NCBI GenBank assembly: GCA_903813345.2
Contig: CAIIXF020000006.1
Coordinates: 36,795,936 to 36,859,935, forward strand
DNA: 64,000 nucleotides
Origin: Owenia fusiformis
Taxonomy: Eukaryota; Annelida; Polychaeta; Sabellida; Oweniidae
Direction of reading: 5' to 3'
Shown here piece by piece: positions 28,701-60,120 of the stretch (position 1 is the stretch's first letter; each line of letters starts with the position of its first letter). The position numbers and the translations under genes are program-made. Below the pieces are notes generated by a model. The model ran no database searches. It was not told where the DNA came from and worked only from the letters and a program-made list of their open reading frames with translations.

Positions 28701-31153
28701 CTAGCTTGTATGAATTCTTTCATGAAACTTCAAATTAGAACTTTGATTGAAACACTTTCCACAATGTTGACATTCATAAGGCTTCTCTCCTGTATGAATT
28801 CTCTCATGTACTTTAACATCACTAATTTCTCTGAAACACTTTCCGCAATATTGACATTTAAATGGCTTCTCGCCGGTATGAACTGTTTCATGTCTTTTAA
28901 CATTATAGTTTCTACTGAAACACTTTCCACAATATTGGCATCTGTATGACTTCTTACCTAAATGAATTTTCTCATGACGTTTCAAATCAGAAGTTTGTTT
29001 AAAACACTTTCCACAATGTTGACATTTAAATGATTTCTCACTAGTATGAATTCCCTCATGACGTTTCAATTCAGAAGTTTGTTTGAAACACTTTCCACAG
29101 TGTTGACATTTGAATGATTTCTCACTTGTATGAATTCCCTCATGACGTTTCAATTCAGAAGTTTGTTTGAAACACTTTCCACAATGTTGACATTTAAATG
29201 GCTTCTCTCCTGTATGAATTCTCTCATGACGTTTCAAATCAGAAGTTTTTTTGAAACACTTTCCACAATGTTGACATTTAAATGGCTTCTCTCCTGTATG
29301 AATTCTCTCATGACGTTTCAAATCAGAAGTTTTTTTGAAACACTTTCCACATTGTTGACATTTAAGAGTCATCTTTCGTATATGAATTCTCTCGTGTATT
29401 TTTACGGCATAAGTTCTTCTGAATTGCTGTCCACAAAATTGACATTCATATGACTTCTCACCTGTATGTATTTTCTCATGATATTTCAAAGAGTTTGAGT
29501 AACTGAAACACTTGTCACAGTATTGACATTTAAATGGCTTCTCTCCTGTATGAATTCTCTCATGACATTTCAAATGAGAAGAATGACTGAAACACTTTCC
29601 ACAATATTGACATTTAAATGGCTTCTCGCCTGTATGAATTCTCTCATGACTTTTCAAAGAATATTTCTCATTGAAAAACTTTCCACAATATTGACATTTA
29701 GAAGTCCTCTCTCCTGTATGAATTCTCTCATGTTTCCTAAGATCATCAGTTCTTCCGAAACACTTTCCACAATGTTGACATTGATTCGACTTCTCACCAG
29801 AATGAGTTCGCTCATGACTTTTCAAATTGGAAGCATCAGAGAAATCCTTTCCACATTGTGAACATTTATAGGGCTTCTCACCTGTATGAATTCTCTCATG
29901 TACATCAACATCATCAGTTCTTCTGAAACACTTTCCACAATATTGACATTTAAATGGCTTCTCACCTGTATGAATTTTCTCATGCCTTCTTAAATGAGAA
30001 GCGTGACGGAAACATTTTCCACAATGTTGACATTTAAACAACTTATGTGCTGAATGATTTCTCTCATGACGTTTCAGGGTAGAAGTGCAATTGAAACACT
30101 TTCCACAGTATTGACATTTAAATGGCTTCTCCCCTGTATGAATTCTCTCATGCCTTTTTAGATGAGAAGTGCAATTGAAACACTTTCCACAGTGTTGACA
30201 TTTATAAGACTTCTCATCTGGTGTCTCCTGTTTAACGTTATGAGGATGAAGCACTTGTCCTTGATCAAATACAACCTCCACTTTAACTAAATCCATTCCA
30301 TTTCTGGGCTTGGAAAATATGTTATGGTCCTCCCCATTCTTATCTTTGAAATCCTGATCATCATTTACACTAATCTCTATATCTTGTTCAATGTTGTGGT
30401 GATCATCTAATTGAACACTGCTGGATGGTGTTAAAGATTTCTCTTTTACAATGTCGTCATAATGTTTTGCTAACATATTCGTGCCCAATCGGAACTCATA
30501 ATTGGTGCTGCTATAGTTCACATTGGTTTGTACATTTTCTTTGGTGGTATGTTTCTCATCTAATGGAACACTGTTGGATGGTGCTGCAACTTCCTCTTTT
30601 ACAATGTCATCATTATACTTTGTTAACATACCAAAGTCTTCTATTGGCATATTATCTGTGCTGCTATAGGTTTCTACTCTTCTTTGGTGGTATGTTTCTC
30701 ATCTAATGGAACACTGTTGGATGGTGCTGCAACTTCCTCTTTTACAATGTCACCATTATCCTTTGTTAACATACCAAAGGCTTCTATTGGCATATTATCT
30801 GTGCTGCTATAGGGTTCTACCTCTTCTTTGGTGGCATGTTTCTCATCTAATGGAACACTGTTGGATGGTGCTGCAACTTCCTCTTTTACAATGTCATCAT
30901 TATCCTTTGTTAACATACCAAAGTCTTCTATTGGCATATTATCTGTGCTGCTATAGGTTTCTTTCTCTTGTTTGATGTTCTTTGAAGTACTTACATGTTC
31001 GGTTGCATACAGATTTCCATTGATCAAATTAATTTCTGAATTGATACAGTGATGAGAATCATCAATCTCATGTTTGATGTTCGTGGAACTCATATCTTGT
31101 TCATAACTCAATATAACACAACTGGATTGTGCTTTAATCTCTTCTTCAGCCAT
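28701..31153 (-). CDS. C2H2 zinc-finger protein A, reading frame broken
   Basis: Start at 31153 (MAEEEIK), shared with the paralogues, rather than the longer upstream open frame. The N-terminus has IKHE and IKQE, then about three 48-residue repeats ([35 protein letters not shown]) and a diverged fourth. A deleted base at about 30677, relative to every other repeat copy, turns GAGGTA into GAGTAG and stops the frame at 30674-30676. From 30650 the second frame carries the remaining N-terminus and 18 C2H2 fingers (C-x2-C-x12-H-x3-H with TGEKP linkers). Fingers 13 and 14 are identical. The array ends at TAG (GAG in the consensus linker), with relict fingers beyond. Likely nuclear and DNA-binding; target unknown. 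Either a young pseudogene or a sequencing error in one base. Downstream methionines could also initiate a finger-only protein. Confidence 0.82.
30460..30965 (-). repeat. Coding tandem repeat of gene A, 144-bp unit
   Basis: Three clear 144-bp (48-codon) units plus a diverged one. Each encodes a [20 protein letters not shown]-like segment carrying VKEE. The 1-nt deletion lies at the boundary between units two and three. Confidence 0.85.
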
Positions 31154-31392
31154 ATTGGGTCTAACCACAGAATCTAAACCGACACCATGACCCTTTTGAT
31201 TTCTTGTATTTGAATTCAGCCTAGTCTTGTTTTCACCAGTGTCAACCAAGTCACGTTAGAAATCATATGTCAATCATGTTTATAATGATTAAATTCTTTA
31301 TACAAAGCCTTTGGATGATTTATTCAATGTATTGTCTCTTGAGATCCTAATTCATCCGTCAACGTATCGTTACTTTAGCTGGCTTGATGAGC

Positions 31393-31411
31393 CCTGAAAG
31401 TACAAGAGAAA
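31393..31411 (-). other. Conserved 3' splice site, gene A
   Basis: The minus strand reads TATTTCTCTTGTACTTTCAG followed by GGCTCATC. The pyrimidine tract and AG are conserved at the same distance (about 200-240 bp) upstream of the ATG in all five genes. This implies a non-coding first exon upstream and a second exon starting at 31393. The first exon was not located. Confidence 0.7.
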
Positions 31412-31697
31412 TAAAAATTAACAAACCATTGATTGGCTTAATTATACCATTATAGCAACTGTTTTATCCCTTTCAATGGAACCAGGGTTCCCACAACAGA
31501 AATATCGATTGTTTAGTTGCTTATGTCACCAGTTTCTCTCTCCCAAAGTTATTTCTTCACTCGCGCATCCAGTTCATACATCTCATGCTACTCATCAAAA
31601 AAGTAATTTTATTGGTAATATGATGCAATACTGAAACTCGAAAGTAGTGTTTTCTGGTGCATGAGTTAGAGTCATAAAAATATGGCTGATGCAAGTA

Positions 31698-32173
31698 CAG
31701 TGTGTTAATAAACGCAACCCAAAGAAATCGCTATATCTTGGAAAATACTAATTCAATAATGTTCCTGTAGATGGTTAGTTTTAAAACATGTTACCTTGGA
31801 CATCTGCTCAAAAGACAGTTGTACTAGGAAAATACGAAAAAAGCATGTACCATAGCGTATTGGCTCTTCTAATTTGGCATAAATCATCTTCATTCAATGT
31901 ATGGTAAATCTGTAGAATGAAATCAAAATCAACATAAAATCAACATAAATGAATTAGTATTTTCCAAGATAGCGATTTTCCGTTCGCACTTTTCGTATTT
32001 TTCTAATACTAATGTCTTTTGAGCAGGTGTCCAAGACAACATGTTTTTCAACTAACTAATAACACGACCTTTACATAGAAATTCTCTTCTTTCTTTCCTG
32101 AAAATGAACACAATTGGATAAATGTTTTCCAAGATATAGCGATCTCTTTGGGTTGCGGTTTTTTAACACCCTG
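31698..32173. mobile_element. 476-bp MITE with TA duplication
   Basis: The arms share CGCAACCCAAAGA and ATCGCTATATCTTGGAAAA and start CAGTGTGTTAATAAA / CAGGGTGTTAAAAAA. TA flanks it at 31696-31697 and 32174-32175. Tc1/mariner-like by terminus and duplication. The sister unit at 43161 keeps only its left end. Confidence 0.85.
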
Positions 32174-33162
32174 TACTTTGGACATAGGCAAAGTACACGG
32201 ATACCGTACTTCTTTTTAATTTGGCAGCCGTTTTAATGGGGTCCGCGCATTATACCGAAACCCATTATACCGACATGCATTGTACCGAAAGGCGTTATAC
32301 CGAATGCCATAATCACTGTTCCACAACTAGTTACTTTGACGGAACGTCAATGTAACAAAATGGATGAACTTCCTTCAGATTTAAACCTACCAATAAGTCA
32401 AGTTGCAGATTATAGTTTGGCCCAAAGCTAGAAAATATAGACTAGTTTTAATAAGTTTCTTCGATTTGGAATTTGTTTTGTAAATGAAGCTGTAATTCGT
32501 ATACTAAGCCACTCGCTCTTGTTACATTGACGAAAGCTTGTTATATTACCAATGTATGTTACTTTATCAATGGGGATTTAGCCTGACCATTTTTAGAAAA
32601 CTTGAAAATCTCTAGAATTTGAATAAAGGGAAATAACAGCGCAAAAACTAAGTTGTTTTGATAGAAAATTACGCACAGAATTCAAATAGAAGAAAATGTT
32701 AAGTCTTTTTAGTGGTTAAAAATGCAGATCTCCTAAAATCTCATTAAAATGAGACCTTAACGAGATTTCAAAGCTATATGGAAAAGCCACTATTAGATGC
32801 CTTCACTAGGCTATTATCTGTACTTGTGTCCGTGTCTCATTTTGAGTAGCGAGTGTAAATCCTTTTCGGAAACATGATTATGTTTTCCCTGTAATATGAA
32901 TTGGAGATATCTGACAAAATATGGATAGCCTGAAATATAAATTTTGTGTTTTTGAATATGCGGAAATATCTTGAACACTTTGAAACTGAAGTACAGTTCC
33001 TTAATAGGTCGTTCAGTTTTCTTGTTTTTGTTTTACACAACACGTGTGTTTAATAGCCACGCGTAATTATTAATAAGCGTAATCAGATTATTTCAAGCGT
33101 CGAAATAGCTTATTTTAATCGACGTATCTACACAAACCTATTCAATACCGTTATATTGAGCG
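32174..33162. other. No gene; ATTATACCGAAACCC repeat words
   Basis: At 32249-32310, ATTATACCGA-type words recur four times (ATTATACCGAAACCCATTAT and variants). Their reverse complement occurs at about 37350-37445. A MITE-end relative lies near 32755-32785. No coding region. Confidence 0.45.
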
Positions 33163-34823
33163 CGGGGGATAAGCAAAACGAGGGCGAAGCCACGGACTGC
33201 GACTCGCGTAATTCAAAACGAGGTTACAACGCATTATAGCTGAACAATGGCGGTAATTCCAAACTTAATTTGGAAGGCATGTTAGGATTTGGGGTAGATT
33301 ATTGGTTTGGGTATTCTACAGAATAGCTAGTATGTTCCAGTCGGTGATCAACATATTCATACTCCATCTGCAATGGCATTCTTGGTGCTCGGCTGTCCAA
33401 TAGTTTAGCATGAACACAAATGAATTCGAAATCTGCCACAAAAAATGTAATGTTGTCAATATTTGTCCCTAATATACCGATTTAAACAAAGGAATCAGAA
33501 ATGACATCGAATTAATATAATTATTCATGTTCTGTTGTTACAATTACATCTTCGTGTGATATTTGGTAAGCGGAAAACGTACAATTACATAGAAAATTGG
33601 AATTTATAATAGTCGCAGTCCATCCATCTGCCCAACGCAGTCCGCGACTCAGTGTTGCTTTATATCTGAAGCTGAACGCAATCACAGCCAAAGGTAGATA
33701 GCACAATGTGTGTACAGGTGTGGCCGAAATGGAGCAACTTTGGACAAAATTGAATATAAAGGGCTATTTTAATAGACCTACATCGTGTCTCAATCCATTC
33801 TGCAAATATATACAAGCTGTCAAATACAGCTGAAATCATGAATTTATGGTAGCTAGCAATATTGATGGACTGTTGGAAAGATCATCCAAAATTACATTAA
33901 CTCACCAACTCTCCAATTATTTGATATTTTCCTGATATCTTAAATACTAGTTAATGTACCCTTCCCCAACAGCTTTTATTGCATCATCAAAAAGTTCATT
34001 GTTTCGCATTTCTTCTTCTTATAAAAAGTCTCACCACTATCCAATTATCTATATATTTAACCCTATCCACAAATTGGTTTGTAATAAACATATTACGTTG
34101 TCATCTTGCGCTCGACTGTTCTGCCAAATACGCTATTGAATTGCCATATTTCTAGGTCTTAAACGATACAATATAGCAATTTGGGACATTGATTCAGGTA
34201 ATAGATATATGTTAATCAACGTAACTTTGAATGATAATCTGGATGCTGACTTTCTTTTCCTGAAACAATAATAGCGTAGGAATATAGTTTACACTATCTT
34301 ATTTATTTCGTGTTCGCGGCTGGACTGCGTTACTTAGAATATCAATGGAGGCTGTGTTGCGTTGTTGAAATAGCTTTGTTTACTGGACTGCGTCCACTAT
34401 GAATGCGCAGTTTGAATCTAATTTTCACCTCATGAACACATTCTATTATCAAATCATTTTCACGAATTATACTCGGAGCCTCAACTAACCTTTAGATATC
34501 AGAAACGTGTTAAAACTCCTTTCAAATGTATAGTAAATTAAATAATATGCACATATTTTACAGGTAAAATCAGAACTTTGCTACTGTTTTAGCTTGATCT
34601 GGACAACTGCTTATTTTCTTATCTACAGACCAACAGTAGATACAGAGTAATATTTTGGTCACCGATTAGACACAACGATAGCATTTAAAATACCAGGATT
34701 TCTCTATTTTGTCGGAAGAAGCAGAAGGCACTGCCGGATGTCCCTCCATTTTGGCGCTGGGCTGCGGTGTAAAGTTACTCGAGTCGCAGTCCGTGGCTTC
34801 GCCCTCGTTTTGCTTATCCCCCG
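33163..34823. mobile_element. 1.66-kb DNA element, TIR CGGGGGATAAGCAAAACGAG
   Basis: Perfect or near-perfect inverted ends of about 44 bp start CGGGGGATAAGC and run through GGGCGAAGCCACGGACTGCG at 33163 and 34823. Pieces of the GGACTGCG block recur inside (about 33640, 34322, 34384). No transposase frame. The sister unit of gene B lacks this whole region, by deletion. Target duplication not seen. Confidence 0.8.
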
Positions 34824-35210
34824 TGTAGATGCGTAAATTATAATTGTTTTCACATATCGGGTTTAGTGGCCCGCGATACCTTTTATTTCATTCTTTTGAG
34901 ACGCAATTGATATATTGGCAACAAATCAAATGTTCTAAATGATTCTTCTTCATTTTGGAATGTTTCTCCTACCCGATATTCAAAGATGTGTCTTAAATAT
35001 TATACTTTACATACTTCACGATTCTTGTACTTTCTGTCTTTATGACTCCCGTTCACATTTGCAAGAGTTGTTGATTGCATTTCCTTGATCGTTGGTCGAA
35101 CTTCGATTCCAACAAAATCAGATTAATCAATTAAGAAATGTATTATTATGTTTATTCAAGCAAATAATTGTAACAACTACATTATTTTTTAGCAGTTTTG
35201 ACACCTAAGC
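34824..35210. other. No gene seen
   Basis: AT-rich spacer between the TIR element and the SINE. No supported feature. Confidence 0.4.
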
Positions 35211-39891: not shown

Positions 39892-42546
39892 TTAAATCGC
39901 CATCTTACTAGTATGAACTTTTTCATGACGTTTCAAAGTAGCACAATTGAACCATTTTCCACAATGTTGACATCTAAACAACGTATGTGCTGTGTGAGTT
40001 CTCTCATGACTTTTCAAATTAGAGGGGTGATTGAAACACTTTAAACAATGTTGACATTTAAATGGCTTCTCAGTATGAATTCTCTCATGTCTTTTAACAT
40101 CAAATTTTGTTTTAAAACATTTTCCACAAAGTTGACATTTATAAGGCTTCTCACCTGTATGAGTTCTCTCGTGACACATCAAATTAGAAGACTGATTGAA
40201 ACATTTTCCGCAATATTGACATTTAAATGGCTTCTCACCAGTATGAATTGTTTCATGTGTTTTAACGTCATACTTTGTTATAAAACATTTTTCACAATGT
40301 TGACATTTAAATGGCTTCTCAGGATGAATTCTCTCATGTACTTTAACATCACTAATTTCTCTGAAACACTTTCCACAATATTGACATTTAAATGGCTTCT
40401 CAGTATGAATTCTCTCATGTCTTTTTACCTCATAATTTGTTTTAAAACATTTTCCACAATATTGACATTCATAAGGCTTCTCTCCTGTATGAATTCTCTT
40501 ATGAACTTTAACATCACTTATTTCTGTAAAACACTTTCCGCAATATTTACATTTAAATGGCTTCTCAGTATGAAGTCTCTCATGTATTTTAACTTCATAA
40601 TTTGTATTAAAACATTTTCCACAATGTTGACATTTATAAGGCTTCTCACCTGTATGAATTCTTTCGTGACGTATCAAATTAGAAGACTGATTGAAACATT
40701 TTTCACAATGTTGACATTTAAATGGCTTCTCATGATGAACTCTTTCATGAAGCTTCAAATGAGAAGGATAATTGAAACTCCCTTCACAATGTTGACATTT
40801 AAATGCTTTATCTGCTGTATGAGTTCTTTCATGACATTTCAGGGAAAGGGAGTAGCTAAAACATTCTTCACAATGTTGACATTTTAATGGCTTCTCACCT
40901 GTATGGATTCTCTCGTGACATATCAAATTAGAAGACTGATTGAAACATTTTCCGCAATATTGACATTTAAATGGCTTCTCACCAGTATGAATTGTTTCAT
41001 GTGTTTTAACTTCATAATTTGTCATAAAACATTTTCCACAATGTTGACATTTATAAGTATAATTTCTCTCATGAAACTTCAAATGAGAAGAGTGACTGAA
41101 ACGCTTTCCACAAATTTGACATTTATAAGGCTTCTCGGCTGCATTAGTATCCTTTATTACAGAATTAGCAGAAGAAGCATATGCATTACCAGATATTTCA
41201 AATCTTAAAGAAGTAGGACATATTGCATAATTATGCTCCGAAAATACATCTTTCACAAAATCCATTTCATCAATAGACTTGTTAGACATGTGATGTTCCT
41301 CCTCATTATTGTCTTTGTAATCTTTATCATCATTTGTTATCGCTCGTTTTACACTAATTTCACTATTTTGTTCATCATCTAATGGAACACTGTTGGATAG
41401 TGCTGCAACTTCCTCTTTTACAATGTCATCATAACATTTTGTTAACACACCAAAGTCTTCTATTGGCATATTATCTGTGCTGCTATAGGTTTCTACCTCT
41501 TCTTTGGTGGTATGTTTTTCATTTAATGGAACACTGTTGTATGGTGCTGCAACTTCCTCTTTTACAATGTCATCATAACATTTTGTTAACACACCAAAGT
41601 CTCCTATTGGTATATTAGCTGTGCTGCTATAGGTTTCTACCTCTTGTTTGGTGGTATGCTTCTTATCTAATGACCCATTGTTGGATGGTGCTGCAACTTC
41701 CTCTTTTACAATGCCATCATTATCCTTTGTAAACATACCAAAGTCTTCTATTGGCATATTATCTGTGCTGCTATAGGTTTCTACCTCTTTTTTGGTGGTA
41801 TGTTCATCTAAAAGAACACTGTTGGATGGTGCTGGAACTTGCTCTTTTACAATGCCATCATAATACTTTGTTAACATACCAAAGTCTCCTATTGGCATAT
41901 TATCTGTGCTGCTATAGGTTTCTACTTCTTCTTTGGTGGTATGTTTCTCATCTAATGGAACACTGTTGGATGGTGCGGCAACTTCCTCCTTTACAATGTC
42001 ATCATTATACTTTGTTAACACACTAAAGTCTTCTATTGGCATATTATCTGTGCTGCTATAGGTTTCCAACTCTTCTTTGGTGGTATCTTTCTCATCTAAT
42101 GGAACACTGTTGGATGGTGCTGCAACTTCCTGTTTTACAATGTCATCATTATACTTTGTTAACATACCAAAGTCTTCTATTGGCATATTATCTGTGCTGC
42201 TATAGGTTTCTACCTCTTCTTTGGTGGTATCTTTCTCATCTAATGGAACACTGTTAGATGGTGCTGCAACTTCCTCTGTTACAATGTCATCATAACATTT
42301 TGTTAGCATACCAAAGTCTTCTAGTGGCATATAATCTGTGGTGCTATAGGTTTCTTTCTCTTGTTTGATGTTCTTTGAAGTACTTAAATGTTCGGTTGCA
42401 TACAGATTTCCATTGATCAAATTAATATCTGAATTGATACAGTAATGAGAATCATCAATCTCATGTTTGATGTTCGTGGAACTCATATCTTGTTTATAAC
42501 TCAATATAACACTACTGGATTGTCCTATAATCTCTTCTCCAGCCAT
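39892..42546 (-). CDS. C2H2 zinc-finger protein B
   Basis: Start at 42546 (MAGEEII); the frame is open a few codons further but without an ATG. About 884 residues. Residues about 1-60 carry IKHE and IKQE. Then come seven 48-residue repeats ([32 protein letters not shown]), five with an intact V-K-x-E and others with T for K or Q for E. A linker (ISVKRAITNDDKDYKDNNEEEHH...) precedes 15 C2H2 fingers. Several linkers lack Gly (HTEKP instead of HTGEKP), which shortens finger spacing, and the last finger has 11 instead of 12 residues between Cys and His. The stop replaces a Lys codon and five fingers remain in frame beyond it. A conserved 3' splice site lies at 42743. Predicted nuclear DNA-binding regulator; no target known. 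This is the best-preserved long member. Confidence 0.88.
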   Translation of the reverse strand: MAGEEIIGQSSSVILSYKQDMSSTNIKHEIDDSHYCINSDINLINGNLYATEHLSTSKNIKQEKETYSTTDYMPLEDFGMLTKCYDDIVTEEVAAPSNSVPLDEKDTTKEEVETYSSTDNMPIEDFGMLTKYNDDIVKQEVAAPSNSVPLDEKDTTKEELETYSSTDNMPIEDFSVLTKYNDDIVKEEVAAPSNSVPLDEKHTTKEEVETYSSTDNMPIGDFGMLTKYYDGIVKEQVPAPSNSVLLDEHTTKKEVETYSSTDNMPIEDFGMFTKDNDGIVKEEVAAPSNNGSLDKKHTTKQEVETYSSTANIPIGDFGVLTKCYDDIVKEEVAAPYNSVPLNEKHTTKEEVETYSSTDNMPIEDFGVLTKCYDDIVKEEVAALSNSVPLDDEQNSEISVKRAITNDDKDYKDNNEEEHHMSNKSIDEMDFVKDVFSEHNYAICPTSLRFEISGNAYASSANSVIKDTNAAEKPYKCQICGKRFSHSSHLKFHERNYTYKCQHCGKCFMTNYEVKTHETIHTGEKPFKCQYCGKCFNQSSNLICHERIHTGEKPLKCQHCEECFSYSLSLKCHERTHTADKAFKCQHCEGSFNYPSHLKLHERVHHEKPFKCQHCEKCFNQSSNLIRHERIHTGEKPYKCQHCGKCFNTNYEVKIHERLHTEKPFKCKYCGKCFTEISDVKVHKRIHTGEKPYECQYCGKCFKTNYEVKRHERIHTEKPFKCQYCGKCFREISDVKVHERIHPEKPFKCQHCEKCFITKYDVKTHETIHTGEKPFKCQYCGKCFNQSSNLMCHERTHTGEKPYKCQLCGKCFKTKFDVKRHERIHTEKPFKCQHCLKCFNHPSNLKSHERTHTAHTLFRCQHCGKWFNCATLKRHEKVHTSKMAI
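41370..42355 (-). repeat. Coding tandem repeat of gene B, 7 units of 144 bp
   Basis: Seven 48-codon units, mostly in register. Unit boundaries are easy to see on the plus strand by the recurring CTGTGCTGCTATAGG and AATGGAACACTGTTGGATGG words. One unit is shortened by a codon at VLLDEH. Confidence 0.9.
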
Positions 42547-42742
42547 ATTGGGTTTAACCACAGAATCTAAACTGACACCATGACCCTTTTGATTTCTTGT
42601 ATTTGAATTCAGCCTAGTCTTGTTTTTACAAGTGCCAACACAGTCACGTTACAAACCATACATCAATCATTTATTTGTCTTGTCTTTTGAGATCCTTATT
42701 CATTCTTCAATGTGTTGTTACTTGAGCTGTCTTCACGGGCCG

Positions 42743-46844: not shown

Positions 46845-47039
46845 ATAATGTAACACTTTCCACTTAGTCAGAAACCCATGCCTCTCTATCGTTTCAAAAA
46901 ATTTACCCAATATGTCGGTCTCTGTCAATTTATGGTATCCATATTTTTTTGAAAGGTAACTCTTTGAGGTTCAATTTTCTGCCAGATGCCCATGCCAAGT
47001 CTTATTGTATTAATATTTATATGTCTTTTCATATGTTTC

Positions 47040-48057
47040 AAAGAAAGTTTCTTACTGAAACACTTTCCATAATGCTGGCATTAAATGGTATCTCAATTGT
47101 ATGACGTCTCTCATGACATTTCAAAGAAAGTTTCTCAATGAAACACTTTCCATAATGCTGGCATTAAATGGCATCTCAATTGTATGACGTCTCTCATGAC
47201 ATTTCAAAGAAAATTTCTTACTGAAACACTTTGCATAATGCTAGCATTAAATGGCATCTCAATTGTATGACGTCTCTCATGACATTTCAAAGAAAATTTC
47301 TTACTGAAACACTTTCCATAATGCTGGCATTAAATGGTATCTCAATTGTATGACGTCTCTCATGACATTTCAAAGAAAGTTTCTCAATGAAACACTTTCC
47401 ATAATGCTGGCATTAAATGGCATCTCAATTGTATGACGTCTCTCATGACATTTCAAAGAAAGTTTCTTACTGAAACACTTTCCATAATGCTGGCATTAAA
47501 TGGCATCTCAATTGTATGACGTCTCTCATGACATTTCAAAGAAAATTTCTTACTGAAACACTTTCCATAATGCTGGCATTAAATGGTATCTCAATTGTAT
47601 GACGTCTCTCATGACATTTCAAAGAAAATTTCTTACTGAAACACTTTCCATAATGCTGGCATTAAATGGCATCTCAATTGTATGACGTCTCTCATGACAT
47701 TTCAAAGAAAATTTCTTACTGAAACACTTTCCATAATGCTGGCATTAAATGGCATCTCAATTGTATGACATCTCTCATGACATTTCAAAGAAAATTTCTT
47801 ACTGAAACACTTTCCATAATGCTGGCATTAAATGGTATCTCAATTGTATGACGTCTCTCATGACATTTCAAAGAAAATTTCTTACCGAAACACTTTCCAT
47901 AATGCTGGCATTAAATGGTATCTCAATTGTATGACGTCTCTCATGACATTTCAAAGAAAATTTCTTACTGAAACACTTTCCATAATGCTGGCATTAAATG
48001 GCATCTCAATTGTATGACGTCTCTCATGACATTTCAAAGAAAGTTTCTTACAACAAC
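47040..48057 (-). repeat. 83-bp minisatellite derived from one zinc finger
   Basis: Twelve head-to-tail copies with an exact 83-bp period (TGACGTCTCTCATGAC at 47102, 47185, 47268 ... 48015; the 47766 copy reads TGACATCT). The monomer is a finger (normally 84 bp) lacking one T in the CATTTAAATGG word, which puts a stop after Pro-Phe and shifts the frame. The homologous place behind gene B has only one or two copies. Non-coding. Confidence 0.92.
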
Positions 48058-49756
<1,699 letters not shown>

Positions 49757-51667
49757 CTATCTTGTATGAATTATCTTATGTATTTTAACATCAATATTTG
49801 TTTTAAAACATTTTCCACAAAGTTGACATTTATAAGGCTTCTCACCTGTATGAATTCTCTCGTGACGTATCAAATTAGAAGACCGATTGAAACCCTTTCC
49901 ACAATATTGACATTTAAATGGCTTCTCATCAGTATGAATAGTTTCATGTCTTTTAACTTCAGAATTTGTTATGAAACATTTTCCACAATATTGACATTTA
50001 AATGGCTTCTCACCAGTATGAATAGTTTCATGTCTTTTAACTTCAGAATTTGTTATGAAACATTTTCCACAATATTGACATTTAAATTGCTTCTCACCAG
50101 TATGAATAATCTCATGTCCTTTAACTTCATAATTTGTTTTAAAACACTTTCCACAATGTTGACATTTAAATGGCTTCTCTCCTGTATGAATTTTCTCGTG
50201 ACGTATCAAATTAGAAGACTGATTGAAACCTTTTCCGCAATATTGACATTTAAATGGCTTCTCACCAGTATGAATAGTTTCATGTCTTTTAACTTCAGAA
50301 TTTGTTATGAAACATTTTCCACAATGTTGACATTTATAAGGCTTCTCACCAGTATGAATTCTCTCATGAAACTTCAAATGAAAAGAACTATTAAAACACT
50401 TTCCACAATGTTGACATTTAAATGGCTTCTCTCCTGTATGAATTCTCTCATGATATTTCAAACTAGAAGTGATACTGAAACACTTTCCACAATGTTGACA
50501 TTTAAATGGCTTCTCGCCTGTATGAGTACTCTCATGACGTATCAAATGAGAAGAACTATTAAAACACTTTCCACAGTGTTGACATTTATATGACTCCTCA
50601 CCTGCATTAGTATCCTTTATTACAGTATTGTCAGAAGTAGCATATGCATTACCAGATATTTCAAATCTTAAAGAAGTAGGACATATTGTACAATTATGCT
50701 CAGAAAATACATCTTTCACTAAATCCATTTCATCAACAGACTTGTTAGACATGTGATGTTTCTCCTCACTATTGTCTTTGAAATCTTGATCATCATTTGT
50801 TATCGCTCGTTTTACACTATTTTCTACCTCTTGTTCAATGTTATTTTCATCATTGAATGAAACACTGTTGGATGGTACTGCAGTTTCCTCTTTTACAATG
50901 TCATCATTATACTTTGGTAACATACCAAAGTCTTCTATCAACATATTATCTGTGCTGCTATAGTTCACATTGGCATCTATCTCTTGTTTGGTGGTCTGTG
51001 AACTTGTTTCATGTTTGGTTGCATATAGATTGAAGTTTTCTATTTGCATATTATCTGTGCTGCTATAGTTCACATTGGCATCTATCTCTTGTTTGGTGGT
51101 CTGTGAACTTGTTTCATGTTTGGTTGCATATAGATTGAAGTTTTCTATTTGCATATTATCTGTGCTGCTATAGTTGACATTGGCATCTATCTCTTGTTTG
51201 GTGGTCTGTGAAGTTGTTTCATGTTTGGTTGCATATAGATTGGAGTCTTCTATTTGCATATTACCTGTGCTGCTATAGTTCACATTGGCTTCTATCTCTT
51301 GTTTGGTGGTATGTGAAGTTGTTTCATGTTCGGTTGCATACAGATTACCATTTTTCAAATTAATTTCTATCTCTTGTTTGGTGGTATGTGAAGTTGTTTC
51401 ATGTTTGGTTGCATATAGATTGAAGTCTTTCATAGGCATATTATCTGTGCTGCTATAGTTCACATTGGCGTCTATCTCTTGTTTGATGGCCTGTGAAGTT
51501 CTTACATGTTCGTTTGCATACAGATTTCCATTTTTAAAATTAATTCCTGTAGAATTCATATAGTAATGAGAATCATCAATCTCATGTTTGATGTTCATGG
51601 AACTCATATCTTGTTTAGAACTCAATATAACACTACTGGATTGTGTTTTAATCTCTTCTTCAGCCAT
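49757..51667 (-). CDS. C2H2 zinc-finger protein C
   Basis: 636 residues from ATG at 51667 (MAEEEIK), the family start. The N-terminus has IKHE and IKQE. Instead of the 48-residue unit it mainly carries a 35-residue repeat (YSSTDNMQIENFNLYATKHETSSQTTKQEIDANV-type), about five copies, before a single IEDFGMLPK..DDIVKEE unit. The spacer ([21 protein letters not shown]) resembles that of gene B. Ten C2H2 fingers follow. Helices are reused: ITNSEVKR in fingers 4, 7 and 8; SSNLIR in 5 and 9. The stop at 49757-49759 is TAG where the linker normally has GAG. A 3' splice site lies at 51878. Predicted nuclear DNA-binding protein; target unknown. Confidence 0.87.
   Translation of the reverse strand: MAEEEIKTQSSSVILSSKQDMSSMNIKHEIDDSHYYMNSTGINFKNGNLYANEHVRTSQAIKQEIDANVNYSSTDNMPMKDFNLYATKHETTSHTTKQEIEINLKNGNLYATEHETTSHTTKQEIEANVNYSSTGNMQIEDSNLYATKHETTSQTTKQEIDANVNYSSTDNMQIENFNLYATKHETSSQTTKQEIDANVNYSSTDNMQIENFNLYATKHETSSQTTKQEIDANVNYSSTDNMLIEDFGMLPKYNDDIVKEETAVPSNSVSFNDENNIEQEVENSVKRAITNDDQDFKDNSEEKHHMSNKSVDEMDLVKDVFSEHNCTICPTSLRFEISGNAYATSDNTVIKDTNAGEESYKCQHCGKCFNSSSHLIRHESTHTGEKPFKCQHCGKCFSITSSLKYHERIHTGEKPFKCQHCGKCFNSSFHLKFHERIHTGEKPYKCQHCGKCFITNSEVKRHETIHTGEKPFKCQYCGKGFNQSSNLIRHEKIHTGEKPFKCQHCGKCFKTNYEVKGHEIIHTGEKQFKCQYCGKCFITNSEVKRHETIHTGEKPFKCQYCGKCFITNSEVKRHETIHTDEKPFKCQYCGKGFNRSSNLIRHERIHTGEKPYKCQLCGKCFKTNIDVKIHKIIHTR
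50885..51500 (-). repeat. Coding tandem repeat of gene C, 105-bp unit
   Basis: About five 35-codon units. The exact 105-bp period is seen between CTGTGCTGCTATAG at about 50951 and 51056. It shares the SSTDNM core with the 48-residue unit but joins it to an NLYATKHE...TKQEI segment copied from the gene's own N-terminus. Confidence 0.88.
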
Positions 51668-51877
51668 ATTGGTCTAACCACAGAGTTTGATGACCTTTAT
51701 AATTCTTGCATCTAAATTCCACTTTAAAAGTCTTGTTTTCACCAGTGTTAAATCATGCGTCATTCATATTTATTGACTAAATTCTTTGTACCAAGTCATG
51801 AGATGATCTATCCATATTATCTCTTGAGATCCTAGTCCATCCTTCAATGCATTGTAACTTGAAGTGTTTTTAAGAGC

Positions 51878-51897
51878 TCTGAAAATACAAGAGAAAT
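51878..51897 (-). other. Conserved 3' splice site, gene C
   Basis: Minus strand TATTTCTCTTGTATTTTCAG before AGCTCTTA, about 210 bp upstream of the ATG as in the paralogues. Confidence 0.7.
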
Positions 51898-51899
51898 AA

Positions 51900-54239
51900 A
51901 GATTAATAATAACCATCCACAGCTAAATTTTACCAAATGTGTTTAACCTATGTAAATACCAACTGTTTTGACTTCACCAAATATCATTATAGAAAGAGCA
52001 GTATCAGTATTTTCCTTAATTTAAGTGTCACGAGTTAACATACTGAAGTACCGAAGTATGTACGGACAGATGGACATACTTGTATATGGCATACAATTAA
52101 TATTTGAAACACAACTATTACTCGAACTTATGATCAGACAAATGCATGATGTTACTTTATTACATGTACCTTGAAGTACGCATCATACATTTGTCTGATC
52201 TTAAGTTTGAATATTGTGTTTTAAATATAAAATGTATGACATATAATTAGACCAATGTTAATGCTACCAGGGGGAATGTCGACTCTCACATCATACAAAT
52301 GTAATTTTGGTGGTGACAAACATGTGATTTTGTGGTGGTGACATACATGTAACTGGGATGGAAGGAGTTGCTCACATGAGCCCTCAGCCTGGAATTTCAT
52401 TCTGTGTTTTCATTTTCCTATAATACTAAGAAATTTCAGTTTATTTATGGATCAGATGTCATTCATTCAAAAATTAGGATTGTTAGAAAAACGTGATTTT
52501 CATGGTCCTCACAACTAACTTTTGTTTTCCAAACTATTTGGATTCATTTTGTTGGGGAATGAAATAAGACATTCCCCAGAATTGCTAAAAAGGGCAATAC
52601 AATTCAATCTTTTCGAAAAATACATGCAATAACTTCTTCCCAAGATATTTTTTGATACCCATGTATTTATCCTCAAGCTCTGTAAACTAAGTACATTACA
52701 ACTATGTACAGTCATTGCACCTACCCATTGTCATATTTAGAACAGATTTACAATTACTAAATCTTGATCAACTACAGGCTGCATCTCTACTTATTAATTC
52801 ATCATTTTTTAAAATGATATTTAATCTAAAAAGCTACAGTTATGTAAGAGAAATTCTTGTTTATATCCAATTTGTCGCCAAATAATACAAGACAAACATT
52901 TTACACAATCCTGGCCATTCTGAAAATCTGTTTCTGAGCAGAACTTCTACCCCCATAGGGCACATGTGTACATAATATGACGGATGAAGCCGTTCTCTAT
53001 ATCCCTCCGAACTTTGTTCGATAGGATAACAAATCTCTGGGGATTTAATTTGCACATTTCGTGCAAAACTAAAGCAATGTAAAAATACTGGGAGTATATA
53101 GTACATATGAGCTCTTTATTTATGCCAGGGTCAAATTCAAACAAGGCATTAACATGCAAAATTTCACCTAGTCAACCTGCCATTAATAACATACACAAAC
53201 TGCCGAACACTGCTTCAGATGCCAAAAACCAATCGCCAGACACCAGCTTCAAAAAAGTTGGAGACCATATCAATACATCACCGCTTCTGGTGGTGACATA
53301 ACAAATACATGTAAAAACAGATTTAGTTGGTTAATTGATATACATTTTATTTTATTTTTAAAATTGTTATTCCTTTATAATAAAAAAACATTATTTTCGG
53401 TGTGTGGCCATGATACTCTAAGGCTGAGCACTTGAAAAAGTTTTAAATCAAAAACATCAAGTGCTAAAAACATCAAGTGCTAAAAACATAAACAGACACC
53501 AAGGAGGATTGGCTCCCAGGATCGAAACTCGATATTTTTCAACAATGAAAACGTCGAAATGTCTTCATTTTCTAAAATCAAAACTGACTATAAATTCAAA
53601 ATAAACAGTTCAAAAGATTCGATGCAATATTTCTTATGAGTTTTGGATTTGTTTTCTTATTAAAATATCTGTGTTTTGGTTTGTGAAAAACAACTAAAAT
53701 TTTACAAAGTTGTTGATTTTCTTTCTCAGAGATATTTCTTTTTCTTTTTGACGTTTCGAAATAATTTTTGAAATAATTTCACAATTTTCCAAAATGTCCT
53801 TCAAAATCAACTTTTTGAAATTAAATAGAAAACATTTAACATACCACATTTTAATAATATTTGGTGTGACTTAATAAAAGCCAAAGTAAATTAAACTTTA
53901 TATGGGGTCTTTTAACGTAATTCAAGGAAGTCTGTTCATTGGGGATTTTAATTCCTCTTACAATTCTTTATTTAATTTTAAGCCTTAATATATTTATAAC
54001 TTTTGAGATTCATAAAGCATTTAAATGACTCCCTGCCTGTATTTCACACATACTATTGTGGTATAACCACGATCCAGTTAATTTTTAGAATTAAAATATT
54101 GCTTGTGCTCAAAAAAGCATGTACAAACAAGCAGCCTAAGAATCTGAATGTCTTTATCATAATATTTATATACAGTATCCTAAAGTGGACCACTCATCAA
54201 ATTATTGTTTCATTGCCAAAGCTCACAGCAATTGTGCCA
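51900..54239. other. Upstream and intergenic DNA, no gene seen
   Basis: It contains ZNF-unit flank sequence: GGTGGTGACA words at 52310-52350 and 53290, the AACTGCCGAACACTGCTTC...AGTTGGAGAC block at 53190-53265 (relatives at 63470-63700) and TTTAGTTGGTTAAT...CATTTTATTT at 53325. A 17-bp AAACATCAAGTGCTAAA word is tandemly repeated at 53450-53490. An inverted repeat around AAATGTATGACATA/ATCATACATTTGTC lies near 52080-52250. No coding region. Confidence 0.5.
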
Positions 54240-54406
54240 GTAAACAACAACCTTGAAAGGCTCATCTCCTGTATGAATACTTTCGAAATGTTTCAAAGCT
54301 GTGATTGAAACACTTTTCACAATATTGTCAAGGTTTCTCCTGTATGTATTATCTCATATCTTTTAACATTACTTGTTCTTCTGAAACACTTCCCATAATA
54401 CGAACA
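54240..54406 (-). pseudogene. Relict fingers downstream of gene D
   Basis: About two decayed fingers (GAAACACTTTTCACAATATTG, TTCTGAAACACTTCCCATAA on the plus strand) follow the gene D stop. The stop codon TAA replaces AAA of the usual PFKC word. Confidence 0.75.
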
Positions 54407-56680
54407 TTAAAATGACTTCTCTCCTGTATGGATTCTCTCATGACGCTTCAAATGACAAGTGTAATTAAAACAGTTTCCACAATATTGACATTGATAAGGC
54501 TTATTCTCTCCTGTATGAATTCTCACATGACATTTCAATTGAGAATTTCGATTGAAACACTTTCCACAATGTTGACATGTAAATCGTTTCTCACCTGAAT
54601 GAATTGTCATGTGTCGTTTCATTTGAGAAGAGTTACTGAAACATTTTTCACACTGTTGACATTTAAATGGTGTCTCACCCGTATGCGTTCTCTCATGAAG
54701 CTTCATTTGAGAATGTCTACTGAAACACTTTTCACAATGCTGGCATTTAAATGGCTTCTCACCTGTATGAATTCTTTCATGACATTTCAAAGTGGAACTG
54801 TCACTAAAACACTTTTCACAATGTTGACATTTATAGGGCCTCTCACCTGTATGAATTCTCTCATGACGCTTCAAATCAGAAGTTTTATCAAAGAATGTTC
54901 CACAATGTTTACATTTAAATGGTTTCTCTCCTGTATGAATTCTTTCATGAATCTTCAAATGAGAACTGTCACTGAAACACATTTCACAATGTTGACATTT
55001 ATAGGGCCTCTCACCTGTATGAATTCTCTCGTGACGTTTCAAATGAGATGATCTACTGAAACATTTTCCACAATGGTCACATTTAAATGGCTTTTCACCT
55101 GTATGAATTCTCTCATGACGTTTCAAATCAGAAGGTTGATAGAAACCCTTTTCACAATATTGACATTTAAATAGGTTCTCGCCTGTATGAGTTTTCATGT
55201 GATAATTCAAATGATAAGTGTGTCTGAAACACTTTTCACAATGTTGACATTTATAAGGCTTCTCGCCTGTATGAATTCTCTCATGACGCTTCAAATCAGA
55301 AGAACAATTAAAACACTTTTCACATAATTGACATTTGTAAGGCTTCTCGCCTGTATGAATTCTCACATGACGCTTCAAATCAGAAGGACAATTAAAACAT
55401 TTTTCACAATGTTGACATTTATAAGGCTTCTCGCCTGTATGAATTTTCTCATGACGCTTCAAATCAGAAGGACAATCAAAACATTTTTCACAATGTTGAC
55501 ATTTAATGTCTAATGGAACTCTGTTGGATAGTGCGGCAACTTCCTCTCTTACAATGTCATCATTATACTTTGTTAACACACTAAAGTCTTCTATTGGCAT
55601 ATTATCTGTGCTGCTATAGGTTTTTACCCATTCTTTGGTGGTATGTTTCTCATCTAATGGAGCACTGTTGGATGGTGCTGCAACTTCCTGTTTTACAATG
55701 TCATCATTATACTTTGTTAACATACCAAAGTCTTCTATTGGCATATTATCTGTCCTGCCATAGGTTTCTACCTCTTCTTTGGTGGTATGTTTCTCATCTA
55801 ATGGAACACTGTTGGATGGTGCTGCAACTTCCTCTTTTACAATGTCATCATTATACTTTGTTAACCTACCAAAGTCTCCTATTGGTATATTATCTGTGCT
55901 GCTATAGGTTTCTACCTCTTCTTTGGTGGTATGTTTCTCATCTAATGGAACACTGTTAGATGGTGCTGCAACTTCCTCCTTTACAATGTCATCATAATAC
56001 TTTGTTAACACACCAAAGTCTTTTATTGGGATATTATCTGTGCTGCTATAGGTTTCTACCTCTTCTTTGGTGGTATCTTTCTTATCTAATGGAACACTGT
56101 TGGATGGTGCTGCAACTTCCTCTTTTACAATGTCATCATAACATTTTGTTAACACACCAAAGTCTTCTCTTGGCATATTACCTGTGCTGCTATAGGTTTC
56201 TACCTCTTCTTTGGTGGTACTTTTCTTATCTAATGGAACACTGTTGGATGGTGCTGCAACTTCCTCTTTTACAATGTCATCATAACATTTTGTTAACACA
56301 CCAAAGTCTTCTCTTGGCATATTACCTGTGCTGCTATAGGTTTCTACCTCTTCTTTGGTGGTATGTTTCTCATCTAATGGAACACTGTTGGATGGTGCTG
56401 CAACTTCCTCTTTTACAATGTCATCATTATACTTTGTTAACACACCAACATCTTCTATTGGTATATTATCTGTGCTGCTATAGGTTTCTATCTCTTGTTT
56501 GATGGCCTGTGAAGTTCTTACATGTTCGTTTGCATACACATTTCCATTCATGGAATTCATTTCTGAATTGATACAATAATGAGACTCATCAATCTCTTGC
56601 TTGATGTTCGCAGAAATAATACCTTGTTCATAACTTAAAATGACAGAACTGGATTGTGCTATAATCTCTTCTTTGGCCAT
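54407..56680 (-). CDS. C2H2 zinc-finger protein D
   Basis: About 757 residues from the family ATG at 56680 (MAKEEII). The N-terminus has two IKQE sites, then seven 48-residue repeats with VKEE in five, VKQE in one and VREE in the last. Unlike A, B and C there is no spacer: the last repeat (AALSNRVPLD) runs directly into the first finger ([10 protein letters not shown]), so the intervening exon sequence has been deleted. Thirteen C2H2 fingers follow with standard TGEKP-type linkers; finger 12 to 13 has an extra residue (TGENKP). The dominant word is CEKCF rather than CGKCF, which groups D with E. The frame ends TGEKSF-stop with relict fingers beyond. 3' splice site at 56916. Predicted nuclear DNA-binding protein. 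Confidence 0.88.
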   Translation of the reverse strand: MAKEEIIAQSSSVILSYEQGIISANIKQEIDESHYCINSEMNSMNGNVYANEHVRTSQAIKQEIETYSSTDNIPIEDVGVLTKYNDDIVKEEVAAPSNSVPLDEKHTTKEEVETYSSTGNMPREDFGVLTKCYDDIVKEEVAAPSNSVPLDKKSTTKEEVETYSSTGNMPREDFGVLTKCYDDIVKEEVAAPSNSVPLDKKDTTKEEVETYSSTDNIPIKDFGVLTKYYDDIVKEEVAAPSNSVPLDEKHTTKEEVETYSSTDNIPIGDFGRLTKYNDDIVKEEVAAPSNSVPLDEKHTTKEEVETYGRTDNMPIEDFGMLTKYNDDIVKQEVAAPSNSAPLDEKHTTKEWVKTYSSTDNMPIEDFSVLTKYNDDIVREEVAALSNRVPLDIKCQHCEKCFDCPSDLKRHEKIHTGEKPYKCQHCEKCFNCPSDLKRHVRIHTGEKPYKCQLCEKCFNCSSDLKRHERIHTGEKPYKCQHCEKCFRHTYHLNYHMKTHTGENLFKCQYCEKGFYQPSDLKRHERIHTGEKPFKCDHCGKCFSRSSHLKRHERIHTGERPYKCQHCEMCFSDSSHLKIHERIHTGEKPFKCKHCGTFFDKTSDLKRHERIHTGERPYKCQHCEKCFSDSSTLKCHERIHTGEKPFKCQHCEKCFSRHSQMKLHERTHTGETPFKCQQCEKCFSNSSQMKRHMTIHSGEKRFTCQHCGKCFNRNSQLKCHVRIHTGENKPYQCQYCGNCFNYTCHLKRHERIHTGEKSF
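55505..56500 (-). repeat. Coding tandem repeat of gene D, 7 units of 144 bp
   Basis: Seven 48-codon units in register (CTATTGGCATATTATCTGTG at 55591 and 55735, period 144). Two adjacent units share the variant MPREDFGVLTKCY, so the array grew by unit duplication. Confidence 0.9.
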
Positions 56681-56915
56681 ATTGGATCTATCCCCAGAGT
56701 CTCTGATTCTCAATCATGACTCTTTCAGTTTTGCTTCATGTGTTTGAATTCAACTTAGTCTTGTTTTCACCAATATGAAATCATTCATATGACAGATGAC
56801 TCTTCATACATTCTTATTGACCCATTGGTTATCGAGGGGTGAGATGATTTATCCGTATTGTCTCTTGAGATCCTTATTCCTTATTCAATATTGTTACTTG
56901 AGGTGTTTTATGAGC

Positions 56916-56935
56916 CCTGAAAATACAAGAGAAAT
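56916..56935 (-). other. Conserved 3' splice site, gene D
   Basis: Minus strand TATTTCTCTTGTATTTTCAG before GGCTCATA, about 235 bp upstream of the ATG. Confidence 0.7.
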
Positions 56936-57044
56936 AAAGCTTAACAAAAATCATTCCTCAACTTAATTATACCAAATACCAACTGTGCTTCACCAAAAAA
57001 AAACTGTAAAATAGCAGCATTTGGTTTTTTCCTAATTTTTAAAA

Positions 57045-58050
57045 TCATTTTGCCACTTGATGTAACACTGTTTTCTTTTGACATCTCAATTTTTTAAAAC
57101 TTGAACATTCAAAGTTCATACATATGGGAAAATGCATTCAGGCAGGTGTTTAAAGATCTCCTGTCTGTTTATGTTCAAAGGATTTCTGATGTAAAGTTTA
57201 CTAGTACTCAGACACCCTCAGAGCCTAGATGTATCATTGCCACACACCTGTATGGATTCTCCTCAGTTGGCATTTGGGTGTATTAAGGGTTTAGTGTATT
57301 ACGGTGTGTGTCAATGAATGGCAAACAAAACAAGATTATGTCAGTGTATACAACAAATTATTTATTTCATATAAAATCACTAATAGTCACTTTTTATTAC
57401 TCTATCTTAATTTAATAACAGTGCCATGGGTTCATATATAAATAATAACAATATAATACATAATACATCGGTATTATTAAAGACATAATAGAGAGGTTTC
57501 GCACATAAGTGAAAGTACAACTTATACGTATAGTTTAAAGGGTCATGTCGAACTATTATATTTACTAAAATCAATTTTAAATTGTACTTAATGGAACATA
57601 ACTATTCCCGTTATAGAAAAGCTCCATCAACTAGAGACTGTGAAAACTTATTTTTTCATTGAGTTTAAACCTACATTTTATGTAGACATTTTATTAAAGC
57701 ATATAAGGACTATTAGTGATTTTATTGTAATTTTAAATGAAATAACTTTACATCAAAAATCCTTTAACATAAACAGACAGAAGATCTTAAAACACCTGCC
57801 TGAATGCATTTTTCCCATATGTATGAACTTTGATGTTCAAGTTTTAAAAAGTTGAGATGTCACACTGTTGTGTGGCAATGATACATCTAGGCTCTTAAGG
57901 GTGCGTACTAGAAAACTTTTCATCAAAAATCCTTTGAACATAAACAGACAGAAGATCTTAAAACACCTGCCTGGATGCATTTTCCCAAATGTATGAACTT
58001 TGAATGTTCAAGTTTTAAAAAAACACTGTTACAGACAGGTGGCAAAATGT
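57045..58050. repeat. Three-copy inverted/direct repeat upstream of gene D
   Basis: A block of about 120 bp (landmarks AACTTGAACATTCAAAGTTC, GCATTCAGGCAGGTGTTT and AAACAGACAGAAGATC) occurs once on one strand (about 57060-57200) and twice inverted (57760-57870 and 57910-58040). The AATAACAGTGCCATGGGTTC block at 57415 recurs upstream of gene E at 60465, tying it to the ZNF unit. Confidence 0.7.
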
Positions 58051-58739
58051 TTTTTTTAAAAAAACACAGATTGGATCATTTTTGTAAACTGTGATTTAGA
58101 TGCAGTTTTATGACTGTGTGTGATTTAAACACGATGGTACAAATTCTTTTCTGAATCGTGATATGTACATTTAAAAAGGGTTCTTGCACTTATTAAAATA
58201 TCTTGGGGGCTAATATAGGGTCTTTTAGACACTTGTCCTTTGCATAAAACTAAATAGCACTCACAAAAATACTGAGAGAAAATTAGATGTATGAGCTCTC
58301 TATTCATGTCAGGGTCAAAATTAATTAAATACAAAGTCATGTAAAAACAGACTCAGTTGGTTAATTTATGTTCATTTTATTTATTTTTAAAATTCATTTT
58401 CTGACATTCTCAACAATGTTGATCCTTTTGCTACAAGCATGTTGCTATGGCACCTCTAAGGGTGTAAAGATGGACCATAACTAAAAACTTTAACACCAAA
58501 ATAATCAAGTGCTCAAACACAAACTTATACAATATACAACAATGATACATAAAATGCCATTATTGGGTGTAAATAATTAAAACATATATATATCAAAATG
58601 ATGCATTAATATAAAGTAAGAATCTTAATCTGAATGTCTAATATCGTGTTATTTATAAATCCTTAAATGGAACACTCATCATTGCTCCAATGCCATAACC
58701 CATAACATGGAACCATCTTGTGCCAGCTTACAACTTCCT
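58051..58739. other. ZNF-unit 3' flank, no gene seen
   Basis: It holds the flank motif ACAGACTCAGTTGGTTAATT...CATTTTATTT (58345-58385), also found at 38535, 46190 and 53320. No coding region. Confidence 0.45.
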
Positions 58740-58875
58740 TAAAAGGCTTGTTTCAAAATATTTCAAAAGTGTGATAGAAACACTTTTCACAATATTGCCA
58801 TTCAGAAGGCTTCTCCTGTATGAATTCTCTCATGTCTTTTAACATTACTTGCCCTTCTTTCCATAATAATGACAT
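58740..58875 (-). pseudogene. Relict fingers downstream of gene E
   Basis: About one and a half decayed fingers in the gene E orientation, counterpart of 54240-54406. Separated from gene E by the frameshift at its end. Confidence 0.7.
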
Positions 58876-60120
58876 TTAAATGGCTTCTTGCTTTAAATGA
58901 ATTCTCTCATGACGTTTCAGATTAGAAGTGTCATTAAAAAAGTTTCCACAATATTGACATTGATAAGGCTTATTCTCTCCTGTATGAATTCTCACATGAC
59001 ATTTCAAGAGAGAAATTCGATTAAAACACTTTCCACAATGTTGACATTTAAATGGCGTCTCACCTTCAGGTATATGAATTGTCATGTGTTGTTTCATATG
59101 AGAAGAGTGACTAAAACATTTTTCACACTGTTGACATTTAAATGGTGTCTCGCCTGTATGACACCTCTTATGAAGCTTCAAATGAGAAGGTCGACTGAAA
59201 CACTTTTCACAATGCTGGCATTTAAATGGCATCTCACCTGTATGAATTCTTTCATGACATTTCAAAGTGGAAGTGTCACTGAAACACTTTTCACAATGTT
59301 GACATTTATAGGGCCTCTCACCTGTATGAATTCTCCCATGACGCTTCAAATCATATGAATAATCGAAACCCTTTTTACAGTATTGACATTTATAAGGTTT
59401 ATCACCTGTATGGGTTCTCTCATGACACTTCAAATGAGACCTGCCACTGAAACACTTTTCACAATGTTGACACTTAAAAGGCTTCTCGCCTGTATGGATT
59501 CTTTCATGACGCTTTAATTCAGAAGCATAATTGAAACACTTTATACAATATTCACATTTAAGTTGCTTCTTGCTTGTTTGAATTCTCTCATGATATTTCA
59601 AAGAAGTGTCACTTGGTATCTCTTGTTTTCCACTAATTTCTATCACTTGCTCAATGTTGGGTTCCTTGCTGTATGGAACACTGTTGGATGGTGCTGCAAT
59701 TTTCTCTTTTACAATGTCATCATAATACTTTGTTAACACACCAAAGTCTCCTATTGGTATGTTATCTGTGCTGGTATAGGTTTCTACCTCTTCTTTGGTG
59801 GTATCTTTCTTATCTAATGGAACACTGTTGGATGGTGCTGCAACTTCCTCTTTTACAATGTCATCATTATACTTTGTTAACATACCAAAGTCTTCTATTG
59901 GCATATTATCTGTGCTGCTAAAGGGTTCTACCTCTTGTTTGATGGCCTGTGAAGTTCTTACATGTTTGTCTGCATACAAATTTCCATTCATCAAATTCAT
60001 TTCTGAATTGATACAATAATGAGACTCATCAATCTCTTGCTTGATGTTCGTAGAAATAAGACCTTGTTCGTAACTTAAAATGACAGAACTGGATTGTGCT
60101 ATAATCTCTTCTTTGGCCAT
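58876..60120 (-). CDS. C2H2 zinc-finger protein E
   Basis: 414 residues, the shortest member, from ATG at 60120 (MAKEEII). The N-terminus has two IKQE sites. Two 48-residue repeats follow, one with VKEE and one altered to VKEKIAAPSN, then a short spacer and eight C2H2 fingers preceded by a half finger (YHERIQTSKK). Linkers vary: HIPEGETP between fingers 6 and 7 and TGENKP between 7 and 8. Finger words (CEKCF, FFNDTSNLKR) pair it with gene D. One extra base in the last linker relative to the consensus shifts the frame, giving HLKQEAI-stop. 3' splice site at 60333. Nuclear DNA-binding role inferred from family only. Confidence 0.87.
   Translation of the reverse strand: MAKEEIIAQSSSVILSYEQGLISTNIKQEIDESHYCINSEMNLMNGNLYADKHVRTSQAIKQEVEPFSSTDNMPIEDFGMLTKYNDDIVKEEVAAPSNSVPLDKKDTTKEEVETYTSTDNIPIGDFGVLTKYYDDIVKEKIAAPSNSVPYSKEPNIEQVIEISGKQEIPSDTSLKYHERIQTSKKQLKCEYCIKCFNYASELKRHERIHTGEKPFKCQHCEKCFSGRSHLKCHERTHTGDKPYKCQYCKKGFDYSYDLKRHGRIHTGERPYKCQHCEKCFSDTSTLKCHERIHTGEMPFKCQHCEKCFSRPSHLKLHKRCHTGETPFKCQQCEKCFSHSSHMKQHMTIHIPEGETPFKCQHCGKCFNRISLLKCHVRIHTGENKPYQCQYCGNFFNDTSNLKRHERIHLKQEAI
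59655..59940 (-). repeat. Coding tandem repeat of gene E, 2 units of 144 bp
   Basis: Two 48-codon units, the lowest number in the 144-bp-unit genes. The first is intact at the VKEE site. Confidence 0.85.

Follow-up and report, generated by a model that had tools for sequence, protein, structure and literature searches.

The N-termini of a family of zinc-finger (ZNF) genes in the annelid Owenia fusiformis are, on the balance of the evidence, probably poly-SUMO acceptor platforms, in which the number of sites changes with the number of tandem units and for which we infer SUMO conjugation and repression. The family was analysed in a window of 64,000 nt, the whole stretch of DNA under study (contig CAIIXF020000006.1, positions 36,795,936 to 36,859,935 of the forward strand), and the coordinates given below are positions in this window. 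Five genes, A to E, were located on the minus strand at 28701–60126, as the first-pass annotation of this DNA had placed them. They had a common layout of a leader, tandem units and then 8–18 C2H2 fingers per frame. The leader and the units carried the motif psi-K-x-E, in which psi is a hydrophobic residue and which was counted as [VILMF]-K-x-[ED].

Enrichment of psi-K-x-E in ZNF N-termini

The leader contained two psi-K-x-E sites at a spacing of approximately 35 residues, and each 48-residue unit contained one. Before the first finger, eight sites were counted in gene D, seven in B, four and three in the two frames of A, and three each in C and E, which agreed with the first-pass tallies; inside the finger regions, one site was found in D, one in E and none in A, B or C. 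The observed count was matched by none of 5000 shuffles of the N-terminus for D, by 10 for B, by 13 and 105 for the second and first frames of A, respectively, by 214 for E and by 282 for C. This test was inflated by the tandem copies; therefore, the leader plus the first unit (112 residues) was tested alone in A, B, D and E. Gene D had three sites against 0.33 expected (p = 0.003), and the p values for E, A and B were 0.007, 0.007 and 0.046, respectively. The explanation that the excess was an effect of repetition alone was rejected according to this reduced test and the N-termini outside the family. Composition alone was rejected based on the shuffles and the rearranged motifs.

The first-pass annotation had described the feature in the window family and knew of no described family with this architecture. 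A restriction of the feature to the window family was not supported: other ZNFs of the genome shared the enrichment, and a second family, on contigs C11 and C12, was more extreme. Twenty control ZNF loci were picked by open-frame length and position, not randomly, from 150 scored finger matches; 14 of them were used, including two members of the second family (L030 and L031), and in the other six, the stretch ahead of the first finger in the same frame was shorter than 100 residues. The 14 N-termini contained 56 psi-K-x-E sites against 9.3 expected, a 6-fold excess that no other of the 12 patterns tried reached. Most rearranged motifs in the same frames were not in excess, with 9 observed against 9.5 expected for psi-x-K-E, 5 against 9.1 for K-psi-x-E and 8 against 9.3 for the inverted motif, and E-K-x-psi was at or below expectation. 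Moreover, 9 of the 14 N-termini were individually enriched with p below 0.01. The surroundings of the 287 lysines in 20 ZNF N-termini that do not belong to the window family were profiled. Hydrophobic residues peaked at −1 (0.37, with a background of 0.21 and a next highest value of 0.27), and acids peaked at +2 (0.35, with a background of 0.17 and a next highest value of 0.26). An acid stood at +2 in 62% of the cases with a hydrophobic residue at −1 and in 19% otherwise. This lysine-centred profile is the SUMO consensus.

Relatedness among the N-termini was also taken into account. A total of 37 N-termini were grouped by BLAST (E up to 0.001) into 16 groups, with the longest member of each as its representative. 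The representatives had 58 sites against 12.4 expected. They included the arrays of gene B (7 sites) and of the second-family locus L080 (16 sites), and without both, 35 sites remained against about 8.6.

Conservation of the site residues

In the leaders of eight paralogues, the K and E of both sites were invariant (8/8), with a pN of 0 and a pS of 0.32. The remainder of the leader had a pN/pS of 0.95, and column permutation for the K/E positions gave p = 0.015.

The second ZNF family was found on C12 (about 16.98–17.14 Mb) and C11 (about 20.13–20.15 Mb). Its unit was 52–53 residues long and had two psi-K-x-E sites, and according to the match spacing and translations, the arrays comprised one to about eight units in several genes. 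The 526-residue N-terminus of L080 (G000 C11:20144200-20146300) contained its 16 sites mostly in 53-residue tandem units, with 1.8 sites expected. Over 25 units, the second site had K in 25/25 and E in 24/24, while x was variable (E9 R9 K2 L2 S1 Q1). The K and E of this site were the only invariant columns among the 43 outside the pattern used for cutting the units, an outcome expected in 1 of 903 cases by chance. When the K/E columns of both sites were pooled and compared with random columns, p was 0.0007; this value and the conservation of site 1 were biased because site 1 belonged to the cutting pattern. With the same caution for site 1, when 12 diverse units were aligned, the site residues made up 5 of the 6 invariant columns. 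In five paralogues without arrays, the K/E columns were 72% identical versus 39% elsewhere (p = 0.0007). A Fisher combination gave p = 0.0003, which mixes families and serves as a guide only.

The profile comparison between the window leader and the C11/C12 unit aligned the two sites of each, with a weak score (probability 14.5, P = 0.0019). The two may go back to a single old two-site module, or their similarity may be convergent. The arrays of the two families probably arose separately, since the 48-residue and 52-residue units differ.

Proposed function

The genes are tandem duplicates that encode poly-C2H2 transcription factors, and the N-terminus would be a multi-site SUMO-acceptor platform. 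The fingers would select DNA, and several lysines would receive SUMO from Ubc9, the E2 enzyme. On the model of TRIM28 and ZNFs, whose silencing depends on SUMO, the attached SUMO would recruit SUMO-binding corepressors, and a larger number of units would provide more attachment points and stronger, avidity-based recruitment. SUMO attachment, a repressive effect and a strength set by the unit number are predictions of this model. The genome contained two SUMO-like open frames (Rad60-SLD matches, the name SUMO being a reading of the match) and two MIZ-domain matches of the PIAS type. Tandem Rad60-SLD matches at C2:24468869-24474120 were considered as SUMO and rejected, because their spacing was 228 bp and they looked like polyubiquitin.

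A wider proposal is offered tentatively, with more doubt than confidence: in this animal, the site-studded N-terminus may be the general effector module of the fast-evolving ZNF clusters and take the place of the KRAB box. At least two lineages would have made expandable arrays independently, and the copy number of units inside the exon would set the SUMO valence and the silencing strength.

The first-pass annotation had suggested a route to repression independent of KRAB, and the results for the window genes were in line with independence from KRAB. Five frames, namely the first of gene A and those of B, C, D and E, were scanned with Pfam and gave no match to KRAB up to E 1. The KRAB search of the whole genome was uninformative, its controls also having no match. 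By eye, the leader Met of A, B, C and E was preceded by a T-rich stretch ending in CAG, similar to a splice acceptor, and in-frame stops were located between this site and the Met; the printed upstream stretch of gene D had no such feature. Because of these stops in A, B, C and E, a domain further upstream is unlikely, and both the protein and the coding part probably start with the leader.

Contrary evidence and alternative explanations

Several results weigh against the poly-SUMO acceptor reading and were considered together with the other explanations of the sites. The sites may accept SUMO and yet serve stability, nuclear-body targeting or solubility instead of repression. Part of a published account lists many outcomes of SUMO besides repression (PMC7915335), and nothing in the sequence names a reader protein. 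We regard this explanation as possible, if unlikely.

Alternatively, the 48-residue arrays may be minisatellites in coding sequence whose length rises and falls neutrally; the site of the unit would then be a passenger, and the leader sites would be the only ones of importance. The units were 90–94% identical in DNA to their own consensus by position, their pN/pS outside the sites was 1.14, and the array of gene A was frame-broken. Among 20 units, V was retained in 20, K in 19 and E in 18; the site was intact in 17, and K or E was lost in the other three. The K/E conservation was not significant (p = 0.21), and the partial seventh unit of gene D, which was outside the 20, carried R instead of K. 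However, the second family expanded different site-bearing units, in which the second site showed no change at K or E, and the pN/pS at the unit K/E was 0.21 versus the 1.14 elsewhere, based on few changes. The other K-x-E of the unit, with T before the K, decayed faster (K in 16/20). Neutral growth is, in our view, the less probable of these two explanations. The first-pass annotation had read the sites as SUMO attachment points, a reading that free variation of K and E along with the rest of the unit would have refuted. Such variation was absent from the leader and from the second site of the C11/C12 family, and the sites look like genuine SUMO acceptors there; for the 48-residue units, most of the sites were kept and statistical support was lacking.

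That the pattern reflects an acidic region for activation, or a lysine modification other than SUMO (ubiquitin or acetyl), is improbable: the N-termini of the window genes were rich in E and K, and psi-E-x-K and the substitution control psi-N-x-E were enriched 1.8-fold and 2.4-fold, respectively, in the 14 control ZNFs, but psi-K-x-E stood first among all the patterns in that set, and the second family held K and E fixed with x free.

The remaining contrary results bear on the specificity and the breadth of the poly-SUMO acceptor reading. Two rearranged motifs were likewise enriched in the window family, psi-x-K-E 3.8-fold and psi-E-x-K by a factor of 2.1, since any motif inside a repeat is multiplied with it. 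About one third of the leader columns were invariant regardless of the sites. In a held-out set with 5 of 15 loci usable, 9 sites were found against 2.7 expected, and 7 of the 9 were in one N-terminus; this N-terminus alone was individually enriched and came from a family already sampled. Hence, since the other four of the five were at expectation, site enrichment marks one class of ZNFs, and others are without it. Among the 16 BLAST groups, seven held individually enriched members and nine showed no individual enrichment. Further departures were a 2.5-fold excess of E-K-x-psi among the held-out N-termini and a 3.6-fold excess of psi-K-x-S/T in a C12 set, for which 4 of 5 loci were usable. In the QEPVEI family, the K/E conservation was not significant (p = 0.14). 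The flanks of forkhead controls (9 of 12 loci usable) were enriched as well, with 9 sites against 1.6 and a lower density than in ZNFs; therefore, ZNFs are not the only proteins with the motif.

Gene structures and neighbouring sequence

The window family is a local tandem cluster on one contig. When the leader plus unit was searched against the whole genome (498 Mb), all 29 matches listed were on contig C6 at 36.747–36.880 Mb. They comprised the five genes, a leader fragment at 25797–25943 (minus strand) from a further and apparently degraded member, and three places outside the window, two with long ZNF frames (L021 and L023) and one with a short frame (L022). Two of these three places were used in the counts, L022 having no qualifying frame. 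Elsewhere in the genome, forkhead matches were spread over nine of the contigs C1 to C12, four of them close together on C8 and three on C10. This distribution agrees with the published one for Owenia fusiformis, in which Fox genes occupy nine of 12 chromosomes and foxQ2 is tandemly duplicated on two (PMC9539403); the numbering of the contigs is not that of the published chromosomes. The window genes had tandem fingers with TGEKP-type linkers, which characterise poly-C2H2 proteins. Pfam matches to zf-C2H2 and zf-H2C2_2 were obtained in B, C, D and E, the four finger frames scanned, and beyond the fingers no Pfam domain exceeded the cut-offs in any of the five frames. The N-terminus is probably disordered, in our own judgement.

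The 48-residue unit corresponded to a 144-bp tandem repeat, with about seven copies in B and in D, three in A and two in E; the features of the five genes described here were all on the minus strand. The array of gene A spanned two overlapping reading frames. The first (30674–31255) contained the leader (Met 31153), two 48-residue units and four sites, and the second (28701–30698) contained the end of the array, three psi-K-x-E sites and 18 C2H2 fingers. The 144-bp array was at 30525–30974 (3.1 copies), and the frame shift was at 30674–30698, reflecting either a broken gene or an assembly error. Gene B (39892–42648) had its leader (Met 42546), seven units of 47–48 residues, seven sites and 13 fingers, with the array at 41375–42367 (6.9 copies). 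Gene D (54407–56713) had its leader (Met 56680), six full units and one partial 48-residue unit, eight sites and 13 fingers, with the array at 55509–56505 (6.9 copies). Gene E (58876–60126) had its leader (Met 60120), two 48-residue units, three sites and eight fingers, with the array at 59673–59945 (1.9 copies).

The repeat of gene C (49757–51673) was different, mainly 105 bp or 35 residues, with four copies at 50928–51346. The gene had its leader (Met 51667), the 35-residue units and one 48-residue unit, three sites and 10 fingers. In the 35-residue units, the K-x-E was preceded by T and not by a hydrophobic residue, and beyond its three psi-K-x-E sites, the gene had nine more in which the residue preceding K was T, A, P or G. 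In-frame stops followed the tenth finger at 49441–49757, and an open frame downstream (48149–49441, minus strand) had 10 further fingers; the interruption denotes either a truncated gene or a decaying end. At 47036–48062, a tandem array with a period of 83 bp (12.4 copies, 96% alike) overlapped a finger-derived 84-bp array. Because 83 bp is the finger unit minus one base, this array would shift frame in each copy and looks like a finger-derived satellite. Elsewhere in the window, a 1077-residue open frame at 2741–5974 resembled, by eye, a LINE-type endonuclease/reverse transcriptase, and a 20-bp minisatellite of 44 copies was located at 61159–62073.

Comparison with known systems

A shared poly-SUMO acceptor module would offer a direct and cheap test of how large KRAB-free ZNF families of invertebrates work. 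Natural arrays of 1 to about 8 units provide a ready series of valences, and the presence of a second family with expanded site-bearing repeats suggests a testable way of tuning gene silencing. ZNF SUMOylation is already known. For acceptor units in an expandable array, as in the two families of this genome, no description in print was found: the titles and abstract openings among the open-access matches listed mentioned no SUMO-site arrays in ZNF N-termini, and no open-access paper joining zinc finger, SUMO and Owenia was found.

KRAB zinc-finger families are clustered. In tetrapods, the KRAB ZNFs with TRIM28 are likewise poly-C2H2 families. Their silencing works via SUMO, because auto-SUMOylated TRIM28 recruits SETDB1 (PMC7915335). 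By contrast, the window genes had no KRAB match in the five Pfam frames, and their candidate SUMO sites are within the ZNF itself, in tandem units.

FiNZ-type fish N-termini also contain K-x-E sites. The FiNZ proteins of cyprinid fish form a large lineage-specific family with a short glutamate-rich N-terminal segment of 28 residues before the C2H2 fingers, as excerpts of their description state (PMC10547256). Likened by description alone, they resemble the window family in having a glutamate-rich segment ahead of the fingers and in being lineage-specific. They differ in the 28-residue length of the segment, and the same excerpts mention no tandem unit arrays (PMC10547256); the word SUMO is absent from the main text of that paper.

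In transcription factors, synergy-control or SUMO motifs have the form psi-K-x-E, often occur at least twice per protein and limit activation. Compared with these motifs, the N-termini described here had up to 8 sites in the window and 16 on C11, mostly as tandem copies of one unit.

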